From contig NZ_BCNF01000047.1 in assembly GCF_001485495.1 (NCBI RefSeq), positions 1 through 64,000 of the forward strand: a stretch of DNA of 64,000 nt. Direction: 5' to 3'. Within the stretch, counting starts at the first letter, position 1. Each line of letters begins with the position of its first letter. Made by a program: the position numbers and the translations under genes. The DNA comes from Gordonia desulfuricans NBRC 100010. GTDB taxonomy: Bacteria > Actinomycetota > Actinomycetes > Mycobacteriales > Mycobacteriaceae. The notes under the pieces were generated by a model. It did not search any database, was not told the DNA's origin, and saw nothing but the letters and a program-made list of their open reading frames with translations. Shown in pieces: positions 43,266-60,458 of this stretch.

Positions 43266-44408
43266 TCACACTCCGCCGCGTACCACCCGCCGAACCATCA
43301 AATCCTCATCCAGCACAACACAATCCGCCCGATATCCAGGCAGAAGATCTCCGACCCCATTGATGCCCAACGCGCGCGCCGGTGTTCGCGCACACATCTC
43401 CACCGCAGCGACCAACGACGTATCGGTCGCCCCGCCACCACATCCGAATCCACCTGCCGCACGTCGAAATACACCGGCCGGCGTCGCAGTACTCCCGGCA
43501 ATCACGTCGGAGCCCTGAACTCGTGCCACCCCGCCCGACACCTCGACATCCACCGGCCCCAGACGATAGTCACCGTCGGCCATCCCTGCCGCCGACATCG
43601 CATCAGTGACGAGCGCAACCCGTTCCGCTCCGACGACGCGCACCACATGCGCCACCATCTCGGGCCGCACATGCACACCGTCGGCGATGAGTTCCACCGT
43701 CACCCGGGCGTCGTCGAGCAATGCCAACACCGGCCCGGGTTCGCGGTGGTGGAGTGACGGCATCGCATTGAACAGGTGCGTGGCCACCGTCGCGCCTGCC
43801 TCGATCGCCGCGGCGGTCTGCTCGTAGGTGGCATCGGTGCGCCCTACCCCCACCACCACCCCGGCTGCCACCAGGCGGGCGATCGCCGCGAGCGCGCCGT
43901 CGAGTTCGGGTGCGAGCGTGACCATTCGGATTGCCCCTCCCCCGGCGGCGAGCAAGTCGTCCACCGCGTTCGCGGACGGCGCGACCAGCACGTCCGGATC
44001 ATGTGCGCCGCACCGTTCGGCGGCCAACCATGGCCCTTCCAGGTGGATACCCGCCACGGTCCCGTCGACGACGTGGGTGCGTAGCTCCCGGATCTGGTCG
44101 AGGAGGGTCGGGATCGGTGCGCTCACCAGACTCGCGACCAGCGTCGTCGTGCCCCGGGCCCGGTGGAAGTCGACCACCTGGTGCGGGCCGTCGGTGAACG
44201 AGGCCCCGCCGCCTCCGTGCACGTGCATGTCGACGAACCCGGGAACCACGGTGTGCCGCGGGTAGTCGTGGTCGGCCGGAGTCGGCGGTGATCCTGCGCC
44301 CACGTCTCCGATGTGGCCGTCGACGATCGTGAACCATCCCGGCCGTAGTACCTGGCCGCCGCTGACCACGCACGCCGCCGACACCGTGACCGGCCGGGTC
44401 ATCGTCAT
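43266..44408 (-). CDS. nagA: N-acetylglucosamine-6-phosphate deacetylase
   Basis: A 380-residue amidohydrolase. The metal-binding Met-His-Val-His-Gly-Gly-Gly-Gly is near residue 58, followed by Leu-Glu-Gly-Pro-Trp near 124, Ala-Thr-His-Leu-Phe-Asn-Ala-Met near 203, and the catalytic Asp in Val-Thr-Asp-Ala-Met-Ser near 287. It removes the acetyl group from GlcNAc-6-phosphate in amino-sugar catabolism. The ATG at 44408 overlaps the stop of the GlcNAc kinase gene by ATGA. No nagB is seen in the window. Confidence 0.92.
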   Translation of the reverse strand: MTMTRPVTVSAACVVSGGQVLRPGWFTIVDGHIGDVGAGSPPTPADHDYPRHTVVPGFVDMHVHGGGGASFTDGPHQVVDFHRARGTTTLVASLVSAPIPTLLDQIRELRTHVVDGTVAGIHLEGPWLAAERCGAHDPDVLVAPSANAVDDLLAAGGGAIRMVTLAPELDGALAAIARLVAAGVVVGVGRTDATYEQTAAAIEAGATVATHLFNAMPSLHHREPGPVLALLDDARVTVELIADGVHVRPEMVAHVVRVVGAERVALVTDAMSAAGMADGDYRLGPVDVEVSGGVARVQGSDVIAGSTATPAGVFRRAAGGFGCGGGATDTSLVAAVEMCARTPARALGINGVGDLLPGYRADCVVLDEDLMVRRVVRGGV

Positions 44409-45334
44409 GCTCCGGACCGGCCGAGGATCGCCCGGCCCAGCCGCACCGCGCCCTGAACGGGTTCGGCCCCGAGCGCTCGCACGTCGCTGATGCCTGCCGC
44501 CGCGAGCCGTTCCCGAAGGCGGCTCTGCAGCATGTCCTGATGGACGACTTGGCCTCCGCCACACACCACGGGGCCGTCGATGTCGAGGATCTGCGCGACA
44601 CGGATGACCAGCCCGGCCAGCGCATCGGAGGACCTGTCGACGATGTCGGTACAGCGTGGTTCACCGGCTGCTGCCTGCTCGAACACCAGGTGTGCGCGTT
44701 GCGCCCAGTATCGGGGAGTCCGGGTGTAGAAGGCGTCGAGGAAGTCGACCACGGCGCCGAGGTCGCATTCGGCCAGCAGCAGACCGGCCAACTCGGATTG
44801 TGGGCGACCGGCGTCGTGGTCGGCGAGCGTGAGCCGGATGGCTTCGCGGGCCACCCAGTAGCCGCTGCCCTCGTCGCCGAGGAGGTGACCCCAGCCGCCG
44901 GCCCGTCCGGTTGCCTCGCCGCGACGTCCCCACGCGACGGCGCCGGTCCCGGAGATCAGCGCGATCCCGTCGTCGAGGCCGGCGGCGCCGAGGATCAGCT
45001 GGGTGTCGTTGACGACGCGGATCTGCGCAGTGGTGAACCGTTCGGCCAGCAACCGCTCCAATCGCGCGGCGGCCGACGGTGCGTCGATCCCCGCCGAGCC
45101 CGCCACCACCACGTCCACCCCGCCGGCCCCGCCCATCCCTGCGATGGCCTGGTCGAGTTGCTTGCCGGCTTCGCCGTCGCCCATGGACGAGATGTTCGCG
45201 CTCCCCACGATCACCTCGGAGACGACGCTCGACGCCGACGCGCGCATCGCATGCGTCTTGGACCCGCCGATATCAAAGGCAACGATCGGACCACCGGCGT
45301 CTGATTCAGTCACGTCGTCCATCCCACCATCCAC
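44405..45334 (-). CDS. nagK: N-acetylglucosamine kinase (BadF/BadG ATPase family)
   Basis: A 309-residue sugar kinase of the ASKHA superfamily. The phosphate-1 motif Ala-Phe-Asp-Ile-Gly-Gly-Ser-Lys-Thr is near residue 18, Asn-Asp-Thr-Gln-Leu near 108, Gly-Thr-Gly-Ala-Val-Ala near 128, and Leu-Gly-Asp-Glu-Gly-Ser-Gly near 150. It phosphorylates GlcNAc (or glucosamine) at O6, feeding NagA. The GTG at 45334, 6 bases after AAGGAGG, is my preferred start; the ATG at 45322 is an alternative. It is the first gene of the pair. Confidence 0.85.
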   Translation of the reverse strand: MDGGMDDVTESDAGGPIVAFDIGGSKTHAMRASASSVVSEVIVGSANISSMGDGEAGKQLDQAIAGMGGAGGVDVVVAGSAGIDAPSAAARLERLLAERFTTAQIRVVNDTQLILGAAGLDDGIALISGTGAVAWGRRGEATGRAGGWGHLLGDEGSGYWVAREAIRLTLADHDAGRPQSELAGLLLAECDLGAVVDFLDAFYTRTPRYWAQRAHLVFEQAAAGEPRCTDIVDRSSDALAGLVIRVAQILDIDGPVVCGGGQVVHQDMLQSRLRERLAAAGISDVRALGAEPVQGAVRLGRAILGRSGA

Positions 45335-45413
45335 AAGTTGCCTCCTTGTGCTGCCGAACACACTCATCTGCAGTTACGATGCTCACACTTACGGGGAGCA
45401 CCAGGGGGAAAAG

Positions 45414-48024: not shown

Positions 48025-48154
48025 TGATGTCTCCTCGGAATTCGGCCGAATATGACATCCGGCGTTGTCAGGTTCCAGAATGCCACTGTTGCGCCCATCA
48101 CACCATGTGCACTCTGCCCACAATGAGACGATTCGCTGTTACAGTCTGCCCCAT

Positions 48155-49363
48155 ATGACCACTCCCTGGCCGACGACGTCGCCTGCCGTGCGCGACCTGA
48201 TCCGCCGCGGCGCCGAACTCATCCTCGATCCGCCCGCCGACTGGGTCAAGGAGATCCACGAGGCGTCCCTCAGCGGCGACCGCATCCGGGCAGTGGCCGA
48301 GGACCCCGTGCTCGCCGACGGCATCCGCCGCACCAACATGGCCAACGTGATGCGCTGGGCCACCTACACCGCCGCCCACCCGGGCGAGCGCGTCCCCATC
48401 GCCATCACCGCGGAGATCCTGACCGGCGCCCGTGACCTGGTTCGACGCGGCCTCGACGAGGCATCCCTCGACGCTTTCCGGACCACACAGGCGGTGGCCT
48501 GGCGCCGCTGGATGGACATCGCCTTCCACCTCACCGACGACCCGGTGATACTTCGCGAACTCCTCGACGTGTCGTCGCTGTCGATCTCGACGTTCATCGA
48601 CGACACCGTCAACGCCATGTCCGAACGGATGCGCGCCGAACGTGAAGAACTCACCCGAGGCAGCCACGCCGAACGCCGGCAGGCCGTCTCGCTGGTCCTC
48701 GAGGGGGCGCCCATCCCGCACGCCCGCGCTGAGGCGCAACTCGGGTACCGGCTGTCCGGTCCGCAGGTCGCCGCGGTGGTGTGGAGCATGGTCCCCGACG
48801 CGACGGAGATGCTGGAGGCGGCCTGCGACGTCCTGGCCCGCTCGGCCCGTGTGACCACCCGGCTCACCGTCGCGGCCAGCGCGACATCGTGGTGGATCTG
48901 GCTGCCCACGCATGACGTGGGTACGCCCGACCTCGGCGACCTGCCCGAGGTCCGGGTGTCACTCGGACGGTCCGGCGACGGCGTCGACGGGTTCCGCTCG
49001 GCGCATTTCCAGGCCGTCGCGACCCAACGACTGCACGCGCAGCTCGGCGTCCGACGCCGACAACTCGTCACCTACGACGACATCCGCCTGGTCTCACTGC
49101 TGATCCGCGACTCAGCCGCCACCGAGGAGTTCGTCGATGACATCCTCGGTGATCTCGCCACCGCCGACGACGATCTGCGCACCACCATCCACACGTGGAT
49201 CTCGGTGCAGTGCAACACCTCACGCACCGCCGAACTGCTGTACACGCACCGCAACACCATCATCCGACGACTCGCCCGAGCCGACGAGCTGCTCCCCCGA
49301 CCTCTCGCCGAGAACATGGTCGACGTCGCGGTGGCCCTCGAACTCCTGCGCTGGCGGGAGTGA
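48155..49363 (+). CDS. PucR-family transcriptional regulator
   Basis: A 402-residue protein. The N-terminal part (about 1-170) is an RsbT-like/CdaR sensor region. The middle (about 185-300) is the GGDEF-like CdaR domain. The C-terminal PucR helix-turn-helix (about 335-400) contains Ser-Val-Gln-Cys-Asn-Thr-Ser-Arg-Thr-Ala-Glu-Leu-Leu-Tyr-Thr-His-Arg-Asn-Thr. It is divergent from the EthA-like gene with 130 bp between, and probably regulates it. Its stop codon lies in a hairpin shared with the convergent whiB-like gene. Confidence 0.85.
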   Translation: MTTPWPTTSPAVRDLIRRGAELILDPPADWVKEIHEASLSGDRIRAVAEDPVLADGIRRTNMANVMRWATYTAAHPGERVPIAITAEILTGARDLVRRGLDEASLDAFRTTQAVAWRRWMDIAFHLTDDPVILRELLDVSSLSISTFIDDTVNAMSERMRAEREELTRGSHAERRQAVSLVLEGAPIPHARAEAQLGYRLSGPQVAAVVWSMVPDATEMLEAACDVLARSARVTTRLTVAASATSWWIWLPTHDVGTPDLGDLPEVRVSLGRSGDGVDGFRSAHFQAVATQRLHAQLGVRRRQLVTYDDIRLVSLLIRDSAATEEFVDDILGDLATADDDLRTTIHTWISVQCNTSRTAELLYTHRNTIIRRLARADELLPRPLAENMVDVAVALELLRWRE

Positions 49364-51559: not shown

Positions 51560-53152
51560 TCAGAACTCCGCTGCAGACAGTCCCAGCCGGTGACACACCA
51601 TGCGCTCGACGACCCTCGACATACCGCCGAGGATCAGCGAACAGCAGGTCAGCACGACCACCGCCGCCCACAGCTGGTCATAGTCGAAGGCGGTGCCGGC
51701 TTCCACCATGAGGTGTCCGAGCCCGTTGTCCAACGCCAGATACTCGGCCAATACAGCGCCTGCCAGTGATGCCGGGACCGCGATGCGCGCGGCGGAGATC
51801 AGCGCCGGAACCGCGAAGGGTATCCGTGTTCGCAGGACCGACGACACATCTCCGAACCCGTTGGCCTGCATCAGATCCAGAGCACTTCGGGGTGTCCGGG
51901 ACAACGCCGCGTCGAGGGTGATCAGCATCGGGAAGAAGCCGACGAGGGCTGCGGCGACCGCGGCCGTGGCCGACCCTCGTCCCAGAACGGTGATGACCAG
52001 CGGGAGGATCACCACGAACGGCGTCGCCTGCCCGAACACCGCCAGTGGCAGCAGCGCTGATCGGGTACCGCCGACCACGGTGAACAGCACAGCAACGGCC
52101 AGTGCGGCAACGGTGCCGATGACGAACCCGAGTCCCGCGTGCATCAGAGTGGCCACAGTCTCCTCCCACAGCGTGGTCCGTGTGGAATCCGTTGCAGTGC
52201 GGAAGTATTCGATGATGTCAGCCGGGGTTCGCCGAATGAACTCCGGGACAAAGGGGCCGGCGAGGACCCCGTACCAGACCGCGAGAATGGCACCGGTCGA
52301 CAATCCCAGCGACACGCACTTTCTGCCGATCGTCGGCTCCGGAAGACGTAGAGGTGTGGTGATCTTCGGTGATCGACCGGAGACCCGGTCCGACACGGAT
52401 CGGGCGAGCGCGAAGACCGCGCCGACGGCGACCGCAGTCGCCAGGGCCATCGCCCAGGTGCGCGTGGTGAGGCCGGCACGCTGCGAGGTCACCAACGCGA
52501 CTCCGACGCCTGTGGTGCCGCCCATCATCTCGGCGATCACTGCGCCGAGTACTGCCGCGGGGACCGCGAGTGCCATTCCCGTGGCCACGTTGGGGACGGC
52601 CGAGGGCAGATAGATCTTTCGAAATGTGCTGATGGGGCCAAGTCCGGCGACCGCGGCCACCTCGACCGAGGATCGGCTGGCGGCGGCCAGTCCGGTGACC
52701 GTTGCCAACGTGGTGGTGAAGAGAACGTACACGGCAGCAACGGTGATCCGAGGGATGAGTCCCGAGAAGATGGTGGTCAGCACCACCGACAGTGCCACCA
52801 CGGGGACCGTGTACGCCAGCATTGCCGTGTTCAGCAACGGTCGGGTGAGCATGCGGACACGTCCGGCTACGATCCCCAGGGTGATCGCGACGACCACACC
52901 GATCGCGTATCCGATGCCGGCCGACGTCGCCGTGGACTGCAGGTTCGTCGCGTAGAAGGCCACGCCGTCGGCACGGATCTGGGTCACGATCATCGACGGG
53001 CTCGGAACCGTGGCGGTGCCGAACACCGCGCAGGCGAGGGCCCAGCCAAGGCAGCCGACCGCCACTGGCAGCAGCACACTCACGATCGAGGACGCCGAGA
53101 CGGCGGGCACCGGCCTGATCCGGATACGTGCAACTGGGATCTCGACGGTCAT
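51560..53152 (-). CDS. ABC transporter permease, two fused binding-protein-dependent domains
   Basis: A 530-residue membrane protein with about 12 transmembrane helices in two halves. Each half carries the ABC coupling loop: Ala-Ala-Val-Ala-Gly-Leu-Gly-Pro-x-Ser-Thr-Phe-Arg-Lys-Ile-Tyr-Leu-Pro-Ser-Ala near residue 170, and Met-Gln-Ala-Asn-Gly-Phe-Gly near 420. Single-chain double permeases replace the usual homodimer of SsuC/ThiX-type systems. The ATPase gene overlaps by 4 bases. Together with the binding protein it forms an importer for a small organic compound of the nitrate/sulfonate/pyrimidine class; the real substrate is unknown. Confidence 0.87.
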   Translation of the reverse strand: MTVEIPVARIRIRPVPAVSASSIVSVLLPVAVGCLGWALACAVFGTATVPSPSMIVTQIRADGVAFYATNLQSTATSAGIGYAIGVVVAITLGIVAGRVRMLTRPLLNTAMLAYTVPVVALSVVLTTIFSGLIPRITVAAVYVLFTTTLATVTGLAAASRSSVEVAAVAGLGPISTFRKIYLPSAVPNVATGMALAVPAAVLGAVIAEMMGGTTGVGVALVTSQRAGLTTRTWAMALATAVAVGAVFALARSVSDRVSGRSPKITTPLRLPEPTIGRKCVSLGLSTGAILAVWYGVLAGPFVPEFIRRTPADIIEYFRTATDSTRTTLWEETVATLMHAGLGFVIGTVAALAVAVLFTVVGGTRSALLPLAVFGQATPFVVILPLVITVLGRGSATAAVAAALVGFFPMLITLDAALSRTPRSALDLMQANGFGDVSSVLRTRIPFAVPALISAARIAVPASLAGAVLAEYLALDNGLGHLMVEAGTAFDYDQLWAAVVVLTCCSLILGGMSRVVERMVCHRLGLSAAEF

Positions 53153-53964
53153 CGATGCAGTCCCAACAGCAGATCACGCAAGTACTTTGCATGGCCGTTG
53201 AATTCCGGCGTATCCATGGTCTCGGCCGTCCGCGGCCACGGGAGGTCGACGTCGATGGTCTCTGCGATACGTCCCGGCCGTGGCGACAGGACCACGATCT
53301 GCGTCGAGAGGATCACCGCCTCCGTGATCGAGTGGGTCACCAACAATGTGGTGAATCGCTTTCCTTCCCAGATACGTTGCAGTTCGAGATTGAGACGCAA
53401 TCGAGTGAACTCGTCCAGCGCGCCGAAGGGCTCGTCGAGGAGGAGCAGGTCCGGATCTGCGGCCAGGGCCCGAGCAATGGACACTCGCTGCTGCATCCCG
53501 CCGGACAGCTCGTAGGGCCGCGCTCCGGCGAACTGCTCGAGTCCGACCAGATCGAGCAACTCCGCTATACGTTTGGCGGTGTGCGACTTGTCGCGACGGC
53601 GCTCGAGCGGAAGCGCGACGTTGCGTTCCACCGAGCGCCAGGGCAGCAGCGACGCGTCCTGGAAACTGACGCCGAGCCGCCCCGACCTGGCGAGGGCAGC
53701 CGGGGACTCGCCGCCCACCGAGACCGTTCCGGCCGTGGGCTGTTCGAGCCCCGCAGCCATTCGCAGCAGGGTGGACTTGCCGCACCCGGATGGACCGAGC
53801 AGTGTTGTGAACGATCCATCCGGAACCGTGATCGTGACGTCGTCGAGCGCCTGCATCGTTCTCTTACCATGCCCGTATTCCTTTGACACAGAATCGAATC
53901 GGAGCCCCTCGGTCATCGTGAGGTCTGCCCCATCGGCGTCGACGTGCGACTGGATCGCGGTCAT
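53149..53964 (-). CDS. ABC transporter ATPase (SsuB/TauB/NrtD class)
   Basis: A 271-residue ATPase. Walker A is Gly-Pro-Ser-Gly-Cys-Gly-Lys-Ser-Thr (57-65), the signature is Leu-Ser-Gly-Gly-Met-Gln-Gln-Arg, Walker B is Leu-Leu-Leu-Leu-Asp-Glu-Pro-Phe-Gly-Ala-Leu-Asp, and the switch His is in Val-Thr-His-Ser-Ile. It powers the importer. Start and stop overlap both neighbours by 4 bases, so the three genes are translationally coupled. Confidence 0.93.
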   Translation of the reverse strand: MTAIQSHVDADGADLTMTEGLRFDSVSKEYGHGKRTMQALDDVTITVPDGSFTTLLGPSGCGKSTLLRMAAGLEQPTAGTVSVGGESPAALARSGRLGVSFQDASLLPWRSVERNVALPLERRRDKSHTAKRIAELLDLVGLEQFAGARPYELSGGMQQRVSIARALAADPDLLLLDEPFGALDEFTRLRLNLELQRIWEGKRFTTLLVTHSITEAVILSTQIVVLSPRPGRIAETIDVDLPWPRTAETMDTPEFNGHAKYLRDLLLGLHR

Positions 53965-54986
53965 TGCGCGATCTCCGGATTCTCCGCGTAGATCTCGTCG
54001 ACGATACTCAGGTCGAACAGGCCGTCGACGTCAACCGGAACGCCGGCCTTCCGAAGAGATTCCACGGTCGCCGAGGCACGGTCGGGGGTGACCTGCAGGA
54101 CCCTGTTCGTGGTCCCCGGAACAATGATGAGCGGGGCCATGGCCTGGAGCTTCGCCGTTTGGTCGTCGAGGGTCAAGCCCAGACTCTCACCGTAGTGGTC
54201 GACGATCACCGACGCCGTACCGGACGGATCTGCCGCAGCTGCCTGCCATCCCAGGATCACCGCGTGGATGAGTTTCTTGACCTCATCACGACGCGACGTC
54301 AGGCTGCTCTCGTCCACCATGATCGTCTCGCCCACCGACGGATAGCCGTTCTTGTCGAACGGCATCGAGACATAGTCGACGCCCTTGGTCTTCAGCGTGA
54401 CCTCATCGTTGGTCACGAACGCCAGGTATCCATCCACTTTTCCGGTCGTCAGCAACGACAGATCATAGTTCGGCGGAACGGTTTTGACCGATTCGGGATC
54501 GATCCCGTTGACCGCGAGGAATCCCCGCCACGGCGTCATGGCGGTGGGCTCGACCGCGATGGTCTTACCCACCAGATCCTGGGGGCGGCGGATCGGGTCG
54601 CCTGCCAGGGACAGCACGGTGTACGGGTTCGATTGCAGGGTCGCGGCCACGATCTTCAGGTTCGCGCCACCCTTGTTCGCCGCCGCGGTGACCTCGGGCG
54701 AGGACACCCCGACGAGTGCTTTGCCGCTGGCGACGATGGGGTCGGGAGCGATGTTGCTGCCACCCGGTTGCAGTTGGACGTCGCCCGCACCGGTCTTCGC
54801 AAAGTACTTGTCGACCTCTGCCAGCACAGGGCCGGCGGCCGCGAAGTCGTAGACCCAGTTCAGCTGCATGGTCGGGGCAGCCGTGCCACCGGTTGTCGAG
54901 CACGCGGCCACAGTCATGACCGTCCCGAGGGCGACAACGCCACAGGCCGCGTTCATGATGCCGCGCAGAAAGTTTCGTCGGTTCAT
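53961..54986 (-). CDS. Substrate-binding lipoprotein, NMT1/SsuA-like, with Tat motif
   Basis: A 341-residue binding protein and the first gene of the transporter operon. The N-terminus Met-Asn-Arg-Arg-Asn-Phe-Leu-Arg-Gly is a twin-arginine motif and is followed by a lipobox ending Ala-Ala-Cys near residue 29, so it may be folded before export. The NMT1/SsuA fold is seen in Leu-Asn-Trp-Val-Tyr-Asp near 42, Thr-Ile-Ala-Val-Glu-Pro near 140, and Gly-Lys-Val-Asp-Gly-Tyr near 180. Trp and Asn residues in the cleft suggest a flat or aromatic ligand; this is inference. GAGGAAGAG precedes the ATG. Confidence 0.9.
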   Translation of the reverse strand: MNRRNFLRGIMNAACGVVALGTVMTVAACSTTGGTAAPTMQLNWVYDFAAAGPVLAEVDKYFAKTGAGDVQLQPGGSNIAPDPIVASGKALVGVSSPEVTAAANKGGANLKIVAATLQSNPYTVLSLAGDPIRRPQDLVGKTIAVEPTAMTPWRGFLAVNGIDPESVKTVPPNYDLSLLTTGKVDGYLAFVTNDEVTLKTKGVDYVSMPFDKNGYPSVGETIMVDESSLTSRRDEVKKLIHAVILGWQAAAADPSGTASVIVDHYGESLGLTLDDQTAKLQAMAPLIIVPGTTNRVLQVTPDRASATVESLRKAGVPVDVDGLFDLSIVDEIYAENPEIAQ

Positions 54987-55149
54987 CTCTTCCTCATTGA
55001 CGAATGCCAGGAAGACCCGTTCATGCCGCACGCGTGTGATCGGTACGAGATGCGCTCGGTCGATCACGACCGGGGTTCAACAGGTTGCCTCATGGACGTA
55101 GCTGGTCGCACACCGATCGGCCGGGCCCTCCCGATCTCGATGCACATCG

Positions 55150-55182
55150 GCATTCAGATTATTGCCGACAGCATTCAGATTG
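55150..55182. promoter_or_regulatory. Two direct CATTCAGATT operators before the ABC operon
   Basis: CATTCAGATT occurs at 55151-55160 and 55172-55181, 21 bp apart, each preceded by G. They lie about 165-195 bp upstream of the binding-protein start in a 317-bp gap that holds no gene. A near-identical site is at 55970-55980, upstream of the XRE-cupin gene. The likely binder is that regulator. Confidence 0.6.
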
Positions 55183-55303
55183 CGGGTGTCGAGTTACAGG
55201 GAGGTTTCCTTCGGGTCAAACCTTGTTGCCGGCACACCCGCAGCGCTCACGACCCTCGACGCAGAGGCCCCACCGCACCAACGACTCGACAGAACCGACG
55301 ACC

Positions 55304-55939
55304 TCAGCGCTCACGACGACGAGCTATCACATGCAGCAGACTCGTGCCCGCGGGATCCAGTGCAGTCCAGCGCGAACGCGAACCGGCGCGACAGAAAATC
55401 ACGTCACGGCGACCCAACACCCACTCCCCGCCGTTCTCGACCTCCACCCGCAGCTCCCCGGTCATCACGTAGGTCGCCGCCTCGGCGATGTGGTCGAACC
55501 ACTCGGAGTTGTTCTGTTCCGGCAGGATGTCGAACTCCGAGATCTCCAGTTCGTGGTCGGCATCGGTGAACAGTAGACGGCCTGCCGACGACACCGCACC
55601 ATCGACGCTGTGGATGGGATGGCCCTCACCAGAACGAAAGACCACAGCGCCGGGCGTAACCGGCTCATCTGGGAGGAGGTCGCCCGGCGCCACCCCCAGG
55701 GCCTTTGCCAGCTTGTACAGACTCAGCATCGACGGCGACGACACACCACGTTCCAGCTGACTCAGAAATGGCTGCTTCAGATCGGCGAGCGGAGCCAGGG
55801 TGCGCATGGACATCCCCTGCGCCACGCGCAACTCACGGATCCGCGCCCCGATGGCGCGCGCCAGGTCGGAATCATCCCGTGCGGCAGTCGGTCCGTCCAC
55901 ACCGTCGAACCGATCCCCGTGAACACGCGACTTTGACAC
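55304..55939 (-). CDS. XRE-family regulator with C-terminal cupin
   Basis: A 211-residue protein. The XRE helix-turn-helix (about 30-87) contains Met-Ser-Met-Arg-Thr-Leu-Ala and Leu-Lys-Gln-Pro-Phe-Leu-Ser-Gln-Leu-Glu-Arg-Gly. The cupin domain (about 125-205) carries Trp-Phe-Asp-His-Ile-Ala-Glu-Ala-Ala-Thr-Tyr-Val and Gly-Asp/Arg-Arg-Asp-Val. Proteins of this build (PuuR-like) usually repress catabolic genes for the ligand bound by the cupin. It lies between, and on the strand of, the transporter operon, and is divergent from the oxygenase operon. The GTG at 55939 behind GAAGAGG is preferred over the ATG at 55963. Confidence 0.82.
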   Translation of the reverse strand: MSKSRVHGDRFDGVDGPTAARDDSDLARAIGARIRELRVAQGMSMRTLAPLADLKQPFLSQLERGVSSPSMLSLYKLAKALGVAPGDLLPDEPVTPGAVVFRSGEGHPIHSVDGAVSSAGRLLFTDADHELEISEFDILPEQNNSEWFDHIAEAATYVMTGELRVEVENGGEWVLGRRDVIFCRAGSRSRWTALDPAGTSLLHVIARRRER

Positions 55940-55969
55940 CTGCGAAACCTCTTCGTAATACATGAAGCT

Positions 55970-55980
55970 CAATCTGATTG
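55970..55980. promoter_or_regulatory. Palindromic CAATCAGATTG operator before the XRE-cupin gene
   Basis: On the minus strand it reads CAATC-A-GATTG, a perfect 5+1+5 palindrome, 31-41 bp before the GTG start at 55939. It matches the two direct sites upstream of the ABC operon at 10 of 11 positions or fewer. The site would control both the regulator and the divergent oxygenase operon. Confidence 0.6.
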
Positions 55981-56011
55981 CCGTGAACAGTCGGTGACTG
56001 CTTATATGCAT

Positions 56012-56042
56012 CTTACTGGCCCGCTCTCCTCAGCTTACTGGC
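56012..56042. promoter_or_regulatory. Direct repeat CTTACTGGC before the oxygenase operon
   Basis: CTTACTGGC occurs at 56012-56020 and 56034-56042, spaced 22 bp. TATATG at 56004-56009 lies just before. The pair is 110-140 bp upstream of the first oxygenase. It might be a second regulator site or part of the promoter. Confidence 0.4.
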
Positions 56043-56151
56043 TGTCGCGTGCCGGGCGACCACCGCCGACAGCGTTCACATCGCCACAGGACCACATTCC
56101 AGAACCGACCCTGCCGACACAGCGACGTCGGCGTCCGAGAGGAGCCCCCGT

Positions 56152-57078
56152 ATGGCACGCACCGTACCGATCATCGACCTGACCCCATTTCGGTCGAACA
56201 CCGACACCCAAGGCGTCGTCGACAAGGTCCGGGCCGCTTGCACGAACACCGGGTTCCTGGTCGTCACAGGACACGGCGTACCCACCGAGCTCGTCACCGC
56301 CGCGACTGCAGCCGCTCGCGAATTCTTCGACTCCCCAACCGATGTGAAGCGTTCGTACCGCAATCCCGGTCGGGGTTCGGGATACGAGGAGTTCGCCAAC
56401 ATGTCCCTGGGCCAGTCGCAGGGAGACCTCGCGCCGGCCGACCTTCGCGAGGGATACACCGCACGTCGGGTCGACATCATCGATTGGCGCTCGCCGGTGT
56501 GGGGCGCATCAGAGCCCGATACCGCGCTGAGAGAGACCATCTCGAACTACTACTGCGCAATGGACCAGCTGGCCGACACCATCATGGAGGTGTTCGCACT
56601 CGCCCTCGATCGGCCCCGAGACTTCTTCCGCGCGTTCACCGACCGACACGACAGCCAGGTCGCGCTCTATCACTATCCGCCGATGTCACGAGAGCCGCTC
56701 CCCGGCCAGCTGCGCGGCGGCGCCCACACCGACTTCGGCAGTCTGACACTGCTGCATGGAGATCCGTCGGTGGATGGCCTGGAGGTCTGGAACGGGACCG
56801 AGTGGGACGCCGCGCCGATCGTGGCGGACTCCTTCGTGGTCAACATCGGAGACCTCATGCAGCGCTGGACAAACGACACGTGGAAGTCCACCGTTCACCG
56901 GGTCGCGAACCCCGCGGACGGCGACTGGGACAAGACCCGCTACACCATCGCCTTCTTCCACCAGCCCAATCACGACGCCGAGATCACCAGCCTCGACTCC
57001 GTGCATCCGGCCAAGTACCCGACGGTCACCTCGGGCGCGCATTTCACCATGAAGCTCGAGGCCATGGCGCTCACCTGA
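56152..57078 (+). CDS. Isopenicillin-N-synthase-like Fe(II)/2-oxoglutarate oxygenase (1 of 3)
   Basis: The 308-residue oxygenase has the DIOX_N-type N-terminus (Val-Pro-Ile-Ile-Asp-Leu; Gly-Phe-Leu-Val-Val-Thr-Gly-His-Gly-Val) and the iron-binding triad His192-x-Asp194...His249. Arg263 in Arg-Tyr-Thr is the likely 2-oxoglutarate carboxylate ligand. It should oxidise a small molecule by hydroxylation or desaturation using O2 and 2-oxoglutarate. It is the first gene of a five-gene operon, divergent from the XRE-cupin gene. GAGAGGAG lies upstream of the ATG. Confidence 0.9.
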   Translation: MARTVPIIDLTPFRSNTDTQGVVDKVRAACTNTGFLVVTGHGVPTELVTAATAAAREFFDSPTDVKRSYRNPGRGSGYEEFANMSLGQSQGDLAPADLREGYTARRVDIIDWRSPVWGASEPDTALRETISNYYCAMDQLADTIMEVFALALDRPRDFFRAFTDRHDSQVALYHYPPMSREPLPGQLRGGAHTDFGSLTLLHGDPSVDGLEVWNGTEWDAAPIVADSFVVNIGDLMQRWTNDTWKSTVHRVANPADGDWDKTRYTIAFFHQPNHDAEITSLDSVHPAKYPTVTSGAHFTMKLEAMALT

Positions 57079-57158
57079 CACGGCACTCACCCGAGATGGC
57101 ACCCACCCGACAGGGCGATACGAGTCCCTACCGACGAAACCCGGAAAGAACCCCCAGC

Positions 57159-58211
57159 ATGACACCACTATTCGAAGTTCCCACCATCGACATCAGCCCC
57201 TTCATCCGAGCCGGATCTCCCGACGAGAAGCGCTCGGTCAGCGCCCAGATGGACCAGGCATGCCGACAGGTGGGCTTCGTCCAGATCGTCGGACATGGCG
57301 TTCCCGCAGACGTTCTCGCCGGCCTCGCCGATGCGGTCGAAGCCTTCTTCGGTCTGCAGCTCGAGACCAAGAAGACCTACCGCGTCGACGGCGCCAATCG
57401 TGGCTACAGCCCCCCGCGCAGCGAAACACTCAGTCTGAGCTTGGGTCTGGAGTCGACGAGTGGGATGAACGACTTCTTCGAGGCATTCAACGTCGGGTCG
57501 CAGGCCGGCGACTTCCCCCAACTCGATCTCCCCCAGCCCGACTACGCGCCGAACGTCTGGCCCGATGTCGAGGGGTTCCGTGCGGGCGTCGAGGCGTACT
57601 ACGTCGAGGCCGCACGGGTCGCCCGGACACTGACCACGATCTTCGCGCATGCGCTCGGTCTCGACGACGGATTCTTCGAGTACCTCACCGACCACTCGAT
57701 CGACGTCCTACGGATGAACAATTATGCTCTGCCGCAGGGGATCACAGCCCCGGATGGCGACATCACCGGCATGGGCGAACACACCGACTTCGGATTGGTC
57801 ACGGTCCTGTGGGCCGACCAGGTGCAAGGACTCCAGGTCCTCGGGACCGACAACACCTGGCACGACGTCGCCCCCGCCGATGACGCGCTGCTGGTCAACC
57901 TCGGCGATCTGACGGCGCGACTGACCAATGATCGATGGATGTCCACCTTGCACCGCGTCAAACCACCGATCGTGGACGGTACCGTCGTCCGACGCCGGTC
58001 GGTCGCGTTCTTCCACGACGGCAATTTCGATGCCGTGATCGGCACGCTACCAAGCCATCTCGATCTCGCCGACGGGATGGCGTACGAACCGATCACCGTC
58101 GGCGAGCACATCAAGGCCAAGCTCGCGGGTTCGCGTCAGGGAAAAGCGAACACCCAAGCCGTCCGTGAGGCGGCCCGAGTTCTGAGCGCTCAGGGAACAC
58201 CGGCGCGTTGA
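57159..58211 (+). CDS. Isopenicillin-N-synthase-like Fe(II)/2-oxoglutarate oxygenase (2 of 3)
   Basis: The 350-residue member is the longest of the three. The triad is His208-x-Asp210...His265; Arg280 precedes Ser-Val-Ala-Phe-Phe at the usual 2-oxoglutarate position. The N-terminus Val-Pro-Thr-Ile-Asp-Ile and Gly-Phe-Val-Gln-Ile-Val-Gly-His-Gly-Val fit the family. It is clearly divergent from its two neighbours, so the three are not a recent duplication. Its C-terminal 25 residues are an Ala/Arg-rich extension. The stop overlaps the TTG start of the hydrolase. Confidence 0.9.
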   Translation: MTPLFEVPTIDISPFIRAGSPDEKRSVSAQMDQACRQVGFVQIVGHGVPADVLAGLADAVEAFFGLQLETKKTYRVDGANRGYSPPRSETLSLSLGLESTSGMNDFFEAFNVGSQAGDFPQLDLPQPDYAPNVWPDVEGFRAGVEAYYVEAARVARTLTTIFAHALGLDDGFFEYLTDHSIDVLRMNNYALPQGITAPDGDITGMGEHTDFGLVTVLWADQVQGLQVLGTDNTWHDVAPADDALLVNLGDLTARLTNDRWMSTLHRVKPPIVDGTVVRRRSVAFFHDGNFDAVIGTLPSHLDLADGMAYEPITVGEHIKAKLAGSRQGKANTQAVREAARVLSAQGTPAR

Positions 58212-58993
58212 CGACACATCTCGTCCTGGTCCATGGCGCGTGGGCTGGTCCCTGGGTGTGGGATTCGATCCTCGATGCGGTGCGCTCGGCCGGTCACCAC
58301 CCACACGTGGTCACGTTGCCGGGAGTCGGTGACCTGTCCGGTCCCGTCACGCTCGACGATCTCGCCGACACCGTCGTCGCGCAGATCGACGAGCTCGGCG
58401 GGGACGTCGTCATCGCGGGGCATTCCGGGGGTGGGATCGTAGCGACCGAGGTCGGCGAACGCATTCCCCATCGGGTGGCCGGAATCGCCTATGTCGCAGG
58501 GATGATGCTTCCCTCCCAACTCGGCTACGTCGGCCTGTGCGAGCAGATGGGCCTGACCGCACCGCCCGGCGTCGGCCCGTACCTGACGGGGATCGACACC
58601 CGCTTCGGCCCCGCCACGGCGGTTCCCCCGGAAGTGGCCACCGCGATCTTCTTCCAGCTCGCCGGGCCGGATGCAGCGATCACTGCAGCCCGGCGGCTCG
58701 GTGTCCAGCTCGAGTCGGCTCGCCGCATCGCTCCCGTCTGGACCGCCGAGCGCTACGGCCGAATCCCCACGCTGTACATCGAGGCGACGCAGGATCGATC
58801 GCTCCCGCTTCACATCCAGCGCCGGATGCAGGCCCTCGTACCCCCGACCGCCACCGTCACCCTCGATTGCGATCATGCACCGCAATTGTCTGCACCCACC
58901 GAACTCGCACAGACCCTCATCGCATTCTGCGAGACAGAAGCCCGCGGCTCGCACATCCACGGTGTCCCGGGCGGGAATCCCTCCGACAAGTAA
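58208..58993 (+). CDS. Alpha/beta hydrolase, operon with oxygenases
   Basis: A 261-residue alpha/beta hydrolase of the methylesterase/hydroxynitrile-lyase-like group. It begins Val-Leu-Val-His-Gly-Ala-Trp-Ala-Gly-Pro-Trp; the nucleophile elbow is Gly-His-Ser73-Gly-Gly-Gly; the terminal His is in Cys-Asp-His-Ala-Pro. It likely cleaves an ester or amide intermediate of the pathway. The start is TTG in the stop of the previous gene (TTGA); no in-frame ATG lies early enough to make a complete core. Confidence 0.85.
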   Translation: MTTHLVLVHGAWAGPWVWDSILDAVRSAGHHPHVVTLPGVGDLSGPVTLDDLADTVVAQIDELGGDVVIAGHSGGGIVATEVGERIPHRVAGIAYVAGMMLPSQLGYVGLCEQMGLTAPPGVGPYLTGIDTRFGPATAVPPEVATAIFFQLAGPDAAITAARRLGVQLESARRIAPVWTAERYGRIPTLYIEATQDRSLPLHIQRRMQALVPPTATVTLDCDHAPQLSAPTELAQTLIAFCETEARGSHIHGVPGGNPSDK

Positions 58994-59004
58994 GGACTCG
59001 ACCA

Positions 59005-59997
59005 ATGCTCATCTACAGCGCTCCCTCAACCGCGACGTCGATCCCCGTGATCGACCTCGCCGAGAGCTTCTCCGACGATCCCGAGGCCCGCGGGCGCGTC
59101 GCTTGGGAGATCCACAAGGCCAGTAGAGACACCGGCTTCTTCTACGTCACCAACCATTGTGTGCCCCAGGAGATCATGGACGGGCAGCTTGCCATAGCCC
59201 GCGACTTCTTCGACCTCACGCTCGACGAGAAGATGACCGCCGACGCGCGCCGGTCCCCGTGCCTGCGTGGATATGAGGCGATGGCCATCCAGGCACTCGA
59301 CGAGGGCTCGCAGCCAGATCTCAAAGAGGGTTTCCAGGTCGGTCGTGACCTCGCCGACGACCATCCCTACGTGGCACGCGGATTCGCCAACCACGGAGCC
59401 AACCAGTGGCCAGAGGTGATGCCTGCCCTCCGTGGTGTGACCGAGAACTACATCGAACACATGCGCTCACTCGGCACACACCTTGTTCGACTCCTCGCTC
59501 TGTCTCTCGAGCAACCGCAGGACTACTTCGATGCAGCACTCGACGAGGTGGTCGTGACCACACGCATGCTCCACTACCCACCGCAACAGTCCGTCGGTGC
59601 CGGAAACCAGCTGGGCGCAGGGGCTCACACCGACTGGGGATTGATCACCCTGCTTCTCCAAGACGAGGTCGGCGGCCTCGAGGTCCAGAACGCCGACGGC
59701 GAGTGGATCCGCGCACCGCACATCCCTGGGACATTCGTGGTCAACCTCGGCGACATGGTTCCGGTCCTGACCAACGGCCTCTACCACTCCACCATGCACC
59801 GGGTACTCAACTGCTCGTCCGCGCGAGATCGCTACTCGGTCCCCACCTTCTTCGATCTCGACTACGAGTACGTCATCGAGCCGGTCCCGTCATGTGTCGC
59901 CGACGGTGTGCCCACACGCGAGCCCGTGACGGTGGGCCAACACATCGCGGAGATGTTCCGGCGGACCTACACCAACGTGAGCAGCGAGATCTCGTAA
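59005..59997 (+). CDS. Isopenicillin-N-synthase-like Fe(II)/2-oxoglutarate oxygenase (3 of 3)
   Basis: The 330-residue oxygenase has the triad His208-x-Asp210...His265 and the classical Arg276-Tyr-Ser278 for 2-oxoglutarate. Ser-Ile-Pro-Val-Ile-Asp-Leu and Gly-Phe-Phe-Tyr-Val-Thr-Asn-His are at the N-terminus. Tyr-Pro-Pro-Gln near 191 is typical of the plant-like subgroup. It follows the hydrolase by 11 bases. Several successive oxygenations of one compound, or three steps on related intermediates, would explain keeping three paralogues. Confidence 0.9.
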   Translation: MLIYSAPSTATSIPVIDLAESFSDDPEARGRVAWEIHKASRDTGFFYVTNHCVPQEIMDGQLAIARDFFDLTLDEKMTADARRSPCLRGYEAMAIQALDEGSQPDLKEGFQVGRDLADDHPYVARGFANHGANQWPEVMPALRGVTENYIEHMRSLGTHLVRLLALSLEQPQDYFDAALDEVVVTTRMLHYPPQQSVGAGNQLGAGAHTDWGLITLLLQDEVGGLEVQNADGEWIRAPHIPGTFVVNLGDMVPVLTNGLYHSTMHRVLNCSSARDRYSVPTFFDLDYEYVIEPVPSCVADGVPTREPVTVGQHIAEMFRRTYTNVSSEIS

Positions 59998-60050
59998 CCA
60001 CATCGTCGCCCACCTCCGCACCGTTCCGACGCACCGTGAGAAAGAAGGCC

Positions 60051-60458
60051 ATGTCCGTCACCCTCGGCTTCGTCAGCATGATCTGTAGGGACATCGACCA
60101 CCAATCCGGCTTCTACCGTGAAGTGTTCGAGCTTCCCGAGGCCACTGAGCTCTTCTCCGAACATTTCTGCGCACTCCGTATCGGACCGACGATCCTCGCA
60201 TTCCACTCGCCGGCCGCAATCGACCTGCTCGGCCTTCCCGCCGACACCGAGCCCGGGAACTCGAACAACTCCTTCTGGACGTTCGAAGCCGAATCCGACG
60301 ACGCCGTCGGAACACTCACCGACCGGGCGGTGCGTGTCGGAGCGGCCGTGGTGAAGGCCCCGTATCGCACCTACTACGGTGCGTGGCAGTCGGTACTGTC
60401 GGATCCTGAGGGAAATGTCTTCAGGATCAACCGGACCGATGCCCGGCTGCCGGGCTGA
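60051..60458 (+). CDS. VOC-family (glyoxalase-like) protein
   Basis: A 135-residue vicinal-oxygen-chelate fold: Leu-Gly-Phe-Val-Ser-Met-Ile-Cys-Arg-Asp-Ile near residue 5, Phe-Tyr-Arg-Glu-Val-Phe-Glu-Leu-Pro, and a final Leu-Ser-Asp-Pro-Glu-Gly-Asn-Val-Phe-Arg. Members are lyases, isomerases, dioxygenases or binding proteins. It is the last gene of the oxygenase operon and may process a later intermediate. A GTG 15 bases upstream is an alternative start. Confidence 0.85.
   Translation: MSVTLGFVSMICRDIDHQSGFYREVFELPEATELFSEHFCALRIGPTILAFHSPAAIDLLGLPADTEPGNSNNSFWTFEAESDDAVGTLTDRAVRVGAAVVKAPYRTYYGAWQSVLSDPEGNVFRINRTDARLPG

Follow-up and report, generated by a model that had tools for sequence, protein, structure and literature searches.

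A block of nine genes (positions 51560-60458) was analysed in a stretch of 64,000 nucleotides from contig NZ_BCNF01000047.1 of Gordonia desulfuricans NBRC 100010, which is called the window here. The block encodes an ABC importer, an XRE-cupin regulator, three isopenicillin N synthase (IPNS)-like Fe(II)/2-oxoglutarate (2OG) oxygenases (termed oxyA, oxyB and oxyC), an alpha/beta hydrolase and a VOC protein. With moderate confidence we favour its interpretation as a catabolic cassette for the uptake and oxidation of a purine-type nucleobase, N-methylxanthines being the preferred candidates. A free nucleobase is proposed as substrate because three lines of evidence agree, namely the neighbours of oxyB, the neighbours of oxyC and the fold of oxyA, and a xanthine-type purine because two of these lines point there. 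Within this class, an N-alkylated xanthine or something closely related to it is the likeliest substrate; the block is best called a nucleobase or methylxanthine catabolic cassette using 2OG oxygenases instead of, or besides, Rieske enzymes. Pieces of it recur in other genomes (oxyB with the hydrolase, oxyB with XRE-cupin, VOC with an oxygenase, and oxyC), in several cases within nucleobase or methylxanthine neighbourhoods, and this recurrence suggests the substrate class. The cassette was probably assembled by transfer.

The sequence-only reading of this DNA had described eight to nine genes of these types, and open reading frames and domain families confirmed their positions, strands and types:

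51560..53152, minus strand: ABC permease with two fused BPD_transp_1 domains, 530 amino acids (domain search)
53149..53964, minus strand: ABC ATPase (best NCBIfam matches of the nitrate/Sao/taurine type, all those shown below cut-off)
53961..54986, minus strand: NMT1/THI5-like substrate-binding protein with a lipoprotein-like N-terminus as judged by eye (domain family, solved relatives)
55304..~56011, minus strand: regulator with XRE-type helix-turn-helix and cupin domains (domain families; end coordinate approximate, as the start codon is not settled)
56012..56151, no strand: divergent intergenic region, presumed promoter/operator (position between XRE-cupin and oxyA)
56152..57078, plus strand: oxyA, IPNS-like Fe(II)/2OG oxygenase (domains; predicted fold nearest to thymine-7-hydroxylase)
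57159..58211, plus strand: oxyB, IPNS-like Fe(II)/2OG oxygenase (domains; clade with homologues linked to a xanthine permease or a hydrolase)
58208..58993, plus strand: alpha/beta hydrolase (Abhydrolase_6) with TTG start (domain family)
59005..59997, plus strand: oxyC, IPNS-like Fe(II)/2OG oxygenase (domains; groups with genes from plasmid clusters of the methylxanthine type)
60051..60458, plus strand: VOC (glyoxalase-like) protein (family; homologues adjoin IPNS-like oxygenases in other genomes)

On the minus strand the XRE-cupin gene is followed, after 317 bases, by the genes for the NMT1 binding protein, the ATPase and the permease; oxyA, oxyB, the hydrolase gene, oxyC and the VOC gene follow one another on the plus strand. 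Overlaps of four bases (permease/ATPase, ATPase/binding protein and oxyB/hydrolase) support coupling, as had been proposed for the importer. The G+C content of the block is 64.5% compared to 67.8% in the rest of the window and is the lowest of all 8.9-kb windows (500-base steps). This is consistent with acquisition by transfer without proving it. Promoter and terminator counts did not exceed those of shuffled sequence, and an inverted repeat was looked for and not found in the divergent region between XRE-cupin and oxyA.

All three oxygenases matched PF14226 and PF03171 over the cut-off. Metal triad and 2OG arginine, which the sequence-only reading held to be retained, were located in oxyA (H192/D194/H249/R263), oxyB (H208/D210/H265/R279) and oxyC (H208/D210/H265/R276), with a motif RYT in oxyA where oxyB and oxyC have RxS. 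Pairwise identities among the three are only 32-38%. Thus, they are not recent duplicates, again in agreement with that reading.

Close homologues of oxyC were present in 48 records of proteobacterial plasmids (E ≤ 1e-95, 57-62% identity): 38 from Acinetobacter, four each from Klebsiella and Pseudomonas, and one each from Paraburkholderia and Moraxella. As the Acinetobacter records include many near copies, the set represents five genera and not 48 independent cases. A TIM-barrel gene of the Klebsiella cluster was found in 51 plasmid records (E ≤ 1e-80), which by a comparison by eye include all 48 records with oxyC; the best places of both genes lie within about 5 kb in 47 of the 48 records and are separated by 34 kb in CP051864. 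In a tree of 67 rows oxyC groups with four plasmid-cluster genes at 100/100. Hits under 600 bases were dropped, as were proteins below 230 residues or with an internal stop, and the tree comprises 67 of the 99 proteins available. No protein was obtained from loci L091, L095, L100 and L110, which are therefore absent.

The neighbours of these homologues point to methylxanthines. On plasmid A of Klebsiella MS6671 the oxyC homologue follows genes for NdmB (E 1.4e-186 to 6icl), the TIM barrel, a GST and two proteins resembling NdmC and NdmD, the latter of which combines Rieske, NAD-binding and Fer2 domains. In Paraburkholderia caffeinilytica it is located beside NdmA (75%), NdmB (78%), NdmC (68%), NdmD (52%) and NdmE (70% identity, all compared to the P. 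putida MT178 cluster). In P. putida 1290 its companions are NdmC (59%), NdmE (61%) and a fragmented NdmD, along with a permease of the PbuX family (518 bits against a cut-off of 414) and the urate hydroxylase HpxO (566 bits against 500). Among known systems the closest are the alkylxanthine (Alx, ndmABCDE) clusters of Pseudomonas and their plasmid relatives in Klebsiella and Paraburkholderia; these share with the window a dedicated transporter and a regulator, and the plasmid relatives share the oxyC homologue (57-62%) as well. In contrast, the window has an ABC importer and lacks a Rieske Ndm protein, a TIM barrel and an NCS2 permease, and no frmA or frmB is present in the block. The canonical Alx cluster also contains a VOC-family protein, which is not detectably related to that of the window. 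No 2OG gene was present within the fetched stretch of the canonical P. putida MT178 cluster, nor does a review (PMC10380055) list one for Pseudomonas sp. NCIM 5235 in its table of genes.

Plasmid stretches of Acinetobacter and Moraxella (L174, L180 and L184) encode three IPNS-like 2OG oxygenases together with the TIM barrel, an OmpK-type porin and a CafP-type NCS2 permease, which is 60-62% identical in L180 and L184 and is represented in L174 by 70 residues at the edge of the stretch. Close NdmA-E proteins were not found within the fetched stretches; the Acinetobacter cluster retains a Rieske protein distantly related to NdmA-C (28-31%). These stretches possibly encode a 2OG-based methylxanthine route. 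Their two other oxygenases are not orthologues of oxyA and oxyB (31-37%). Several counts fit a replacement of Ndm proteins by 2OG oxygenases: L186 has NdmA, B and C and no 2OG gene, L173 has NdmB and C, no NdmA in the stretch and one 2OG gene, L172 has NdmC, a distant Rieske protein and two 2OG genes, and L174, L180 and L184 have no close NdmA-E and three 2OG genes. A strict one-for-one replacement, with one 2OG oxygenase for each missing Ndm protein, was rejected, since L170 combines NdmA (75%), NdmB (78%) and NdmC (68%) with one 2OG gene. L185 gave, besides a 41% match, just one 53-residue match to oxyC. That oxyA, oxyB and oxyC form a 2OG-dependent counterpart of the Rieske N-demethylases, which would remove N-methyl groups from methylxanthines or else oxidise the xanthine ring and would also operate in the Acinetobacter and Moraxella clusters sharing only oxyC with the block, is an idea that we consider unlikely.

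The second line of evidence comes from oxyB, for which matches of 40-72% identity were obtained in 34 of 59 genomes of the genus (E ≤ 1e-55) and 46 of 298 genomes of the order (E ≤ 1e-60), its own genome included. In the tree of 67 chosen rows oxyB is located in a clade of 10 rows (100/99) with homologues from cassettes of XRE-cupin, PbuX, oxyB and hydrolase genes. A second copy of oxyB (69%) is present on another contig of the same genome; it follows a PbuX-family permease gene (TIGR03173, 419 bits, cut-off 414), precedes a 54% copy of the hydrolase gene and is divergent from an XRE-cupin gene. Homologues of the hydrolase, whose gene directly follows oxyB in the window, occur at six places in five of the 59 genus genomes (E ≤ 1e-25), and all five places outside the window adjoin an oxyB gene. 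Two loci of the genus (L111 and L114, near copies, the XRE match of L114 being in two pieces) and a plasmid of Rhodococcus qingshengii RL1 (L171) hold XRE-cupin, PbuX, oxyB, another 2OG oxygenase and a VOC gene, the latter 57-63% identical to the VOC gene of the window. Where oxyB is at least 66% identical, PbuX and/or the hydrolase accompany it at nine of 12 fetched loci, the exceptions being L091, L096 and L110. These cassettes of the genus and of the R. qingshengii RL1 plasmid have oxyB (66-72%), the hydrolase (49-54%) and XRE-cupin in common with the window. They differ by an NCS2 (PbuX) permease in place of the ABC importer and by a second oxygenase that matches neither oxyA nor oxyC. To our knowledge, such a cassette has no tested function.

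Neighbourhoods were compared with the same marker proteins at 40 oxyB loci, 20 random regions of the genomes with oxyB loci and 20 loci of other IPNS-like oxygenases. The oxyB loci were hand-picked from overlapping lists of 61 and 50 places (L103, L112, L113 and L119 are cut by contig ends; those of G341 and of contig C87 of G347 were outside the sample), and for the eight markers derived from oxyB loci each marker's own locus was left out of the count. A nucleobase marker (NCS1/NCS2 permease, adenosine-deaminase family, AtzD, FdrA/AllG, dihydropyrimidinase, xanthine dehydrogenase or RutA) was found near 13 of the 40 oxyB loci and near none of the 20 random regions or the 20 other IPNS-like loci. 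Likewise, XRE-cupin genes (11/40), NMT1-type binding proteins (7/40) and the hydrolase (4/40) were absent from both control sets (0/20 each). Family models confirmed adenosine deaminase and an NCS1 permease in L098 and AllG in L092 and L095; in L095 AtzD/TrzD was over and FdrA below the cut-off, and carbamate kinase of L092 was over one subfamily cut-off.

The third line is the predicted fold of oxyA, the protein covered by the fold comparison. It is nearest to fungal thymine-7-hydroxylase, with an identity of only 28-29%. Aromatic residues for a possible substrate sandwich as in that enzyme are present. As a substrate marker such a sandwich was rejected, as it is too widespread among the sampled oxygenases. 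Outside its own genome oxyA has no match above 44% identity (298 genomes of the order; 59 genomes of the genus, E ≤ 1e-40; scan of genome contigs), and it was therefore also rejected as a marker of the module. Eight oxyA-like loci from the contig scan, represented by gene calls and N-termini only, showed no clear nucleobase operon; one of them, L085, holds a VOC homologue (46%). On plasmids of Neorhizobium and Terrarubrum (L177 and L178) oxyA-like 2OG oxygenases (35-36%) are located beside genes for pseudouridine-5'-phosphate glycosidase, a carbohydrate kinase and an ABC binding protein; a pseudouridine-related function of these oxygenases is possible.

The importer consists of binding protein, ATPase and permease, as in NMT1/THI5 ABC importers of the thiamine-precursor, sulfonate and taurine type, with which it shares the Pfam families NMT1, ABC_tran and BPD_transp_1. 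It differs from these in its permease, a double fusion carrying both membrane domains in one chain, and none of the NCBIfam models shown reached its cut-off. An NCS2 gene was not found among the nine block proteins, and CafP gave no match in the window at E ≤ 1e-6.

Conserved co-occurrence of the three oxygenases with the importer, which the sequence-only reading had put forward for a neighbourhood comparison, was not observed: in the scans made, the exact set of nine genes was found in this genome alone. For oxyC, the other 58 of 59 genus genomes gave no match at E ≤ 1e-60 and the other 396 of 397 order genomes none at E ≤ 1e-75; the binding protein had nothing above 39% identity in the order or the genus. 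Judged by these scans, the three oxygenases with an importer of this type are not a conserved module. The earlier interpretation is supported for a unit of uptake and oxidation with a catabolic look, and not for the conservation of the set.

If the nine genes serve one pathway, the NMT1-type binding protein would capture the base and the permease and ATPase would import it. The XRE-cupin protein may sense the base or a product and release the divergent promoters. Then oxyB and oxyC, and probably oxyA, would hydroxylate the base in turn, either at N-methyl groups with release of formaldehyde or at ring carbons. The hydrolase, as partner of oxyB, would cleave an oxidised intermediate and the VOC protein might process a product, while purine or pyrimidine catabolism encoded elsewhere in the genome would complete the breakdown. 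Two genes of the xanthine-dehydrogenase family are present in the genome, below the cut-off of every model shown.

A number of observations weigh against a methylxanthine or other purine substrate. Uricase (PF01014) had no match in the genome, and the window has no Ndm, TIM-barrel or NCS2 gene; tblastn with five Klebsiella cluster proteins (E ≤ 1e-3) and with NdmA-E of L186 (E ≤ 1e-6) revealed no Ndm match. The VOC protein of the window was rejected as a homologue of the Alx VOC protein, its score of 39 standing against 40 for the best of 50 shuffles. The substrate of the Acinetobacter and Moraxella clusters is itself deduced, because close Ndm proteins are missing from the fetched stretches. 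At E ≤ 0.001 the binding protein is related to the solved structures 4nmy and 3ix1, the latter a protein that binds the pyrimidine FAMP; a purine binder is not among them. In an alignment read by eye, oxyA has an alanine in place of Arg190 of thymine-7-hydroxylase; it was unplaced in the 67-row tree, and the aromatic residue after HxD occurs in 94 of 98 sampled oxygenases carrying the motif and says little on the substrate. No nucleobase marker was present at 27 of the 40 oxyB loci, including all seven of L117-L123 and all six of L124-L129, the latter with ABC genes beside oxyB. The p value for marker enrichment (Fisher, 7.6e-5) is too strong, as the loci are related. Outside the marker set, PucR was found at 0/40 oxyB loci compared to 4/20 other IPNS-like loci and a carbamoylase at 0/40 compared to 1/20; VOC homologues were found at 3/40 and 3/20, so the VOC gene is not special to oxyB.

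The main competing explanation is a pyrimidine substrate (thymine, a methylated pyrimidine or the thiamine pyrimidine) that is oxidised in the manner of thymine-7-hydroxylase and then opened. It would account for the oxyA model and for an NMT1/THI5 binding protein with 3ix1 among its solved relatives; moreover, other oxygenases of the genome are located with dihydropyrimidinase, an NCS2 permease and RutA, and an oxyB gene (65%) lies near an AtzD/barbiturase-family gene in L092. Nevertheless, the closest homologues of oxyB and oxyC adjoin xanthine-type permeases and methylxanthine-type clusters, and RutA or a ring-opening amidohydrolase domain was not found among the nine block proteins, which makes this explanation unlikely. 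The block could also consist of two unrelated units, an importer for another compound (of the sulfonate, nitrate or thiamine-precursor type) and a nucleobase oxygenase operon. Such a division is consistent with their location on opposite strands, with the occurrence of binding-protein homologues (up to 39%) in genomes lacking oxyC or a close oxyA match, and with the use of an NCS2 permease by close oxyB relatives. We regard it as distinctly unlikely, given the XRE-cupin gene between the two units and the frequency of NMT1-type binding proteins (7/40) and XRE-cupins (11/40) near oxyB loci compared to 0/40 controls.

The relatives of the hydrolase, which comprise plant methylketone synthase (methylketone synthase 1), methylesterase and hydroxynitrile-lyase proteins and a pyrethroid hydrolase, would suit the degradation of a plant or xenobiotic compound (hormone, ester or sulfonate) without relation to nucleobases, the hydrolase opening an ester. 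IPNS-like enzymes act on many substrates, and auxin and gibberellin oxidases are among the matches. The neighbourhoods of the oxyB and oxyC homologues make this very unlikely. IPNS-like oxygenases are common in biosynthesis, and the block might in principle be a small cluster tailoring a natural product. This is extremely improbable in view of the importer, the close homologues in catabolic clusters and the lack of a scaffold-building enzyme in the block.

Among the papers listed in ranked and capped searches of the open-licence literature, none described a pathway with this gene set, and the sequence-only reading had named none either. A 2OG oxygenase in methylxanthine catabolism was likewise not reported among the best-ranked matches there (e.g. 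the best 20 of 792). If the nucleobase or methylxanthine assignment is correct, many bacterial genes now annotated no further than isopenicillin N synthase family oxygenase could be tested for activity on nucleobases or methylxanthines. Furthermore, a non-Rieske chemistry that uses iron and 2-oxoglutarate without a dedicated reductase would join the breakdown of purine alkaloids, for which Rieske enzymes are known in pseudomonads, and catabolic cassettes would be shown to be built by shuffling of oxygenases, transporters and regulators.

Some further loci were recorded. An oxyB gene (65%) is located near genes for an AtzD/barbiturase-family ring-opening amidohydrolase, an FdrA-like protein and AllG in L092 and L095, with carbamate kinase in L092; these loci perhaps encode a ring-opening route ending in carbamoyl phosphate. 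On contig C15 of the G. desulfuricans genome (L062:8550-17298) two IPNS-like oxygenases, a ferredoxin-like protein of 94 amino acids and a VOC protein (54% to that of the window) are encoded together with an NCS2 permease, dihydropyrimidinase, an LLM oxidoreductase and a carbamoylase, which form a probable pyrimidine-oxidation cluster. Two oxygenases, a VOC protein and PucR are found in each of L151, L153 and L154. Within the window, a PucR-type regulator (HTH_30 and GGDEF_2) is encoded at 48065-49363, about 2.2 kb from the block, and genes of the amidohydrolase and BadF/BcrA-type ATPase families are located on the minus strand at 43269-45367.

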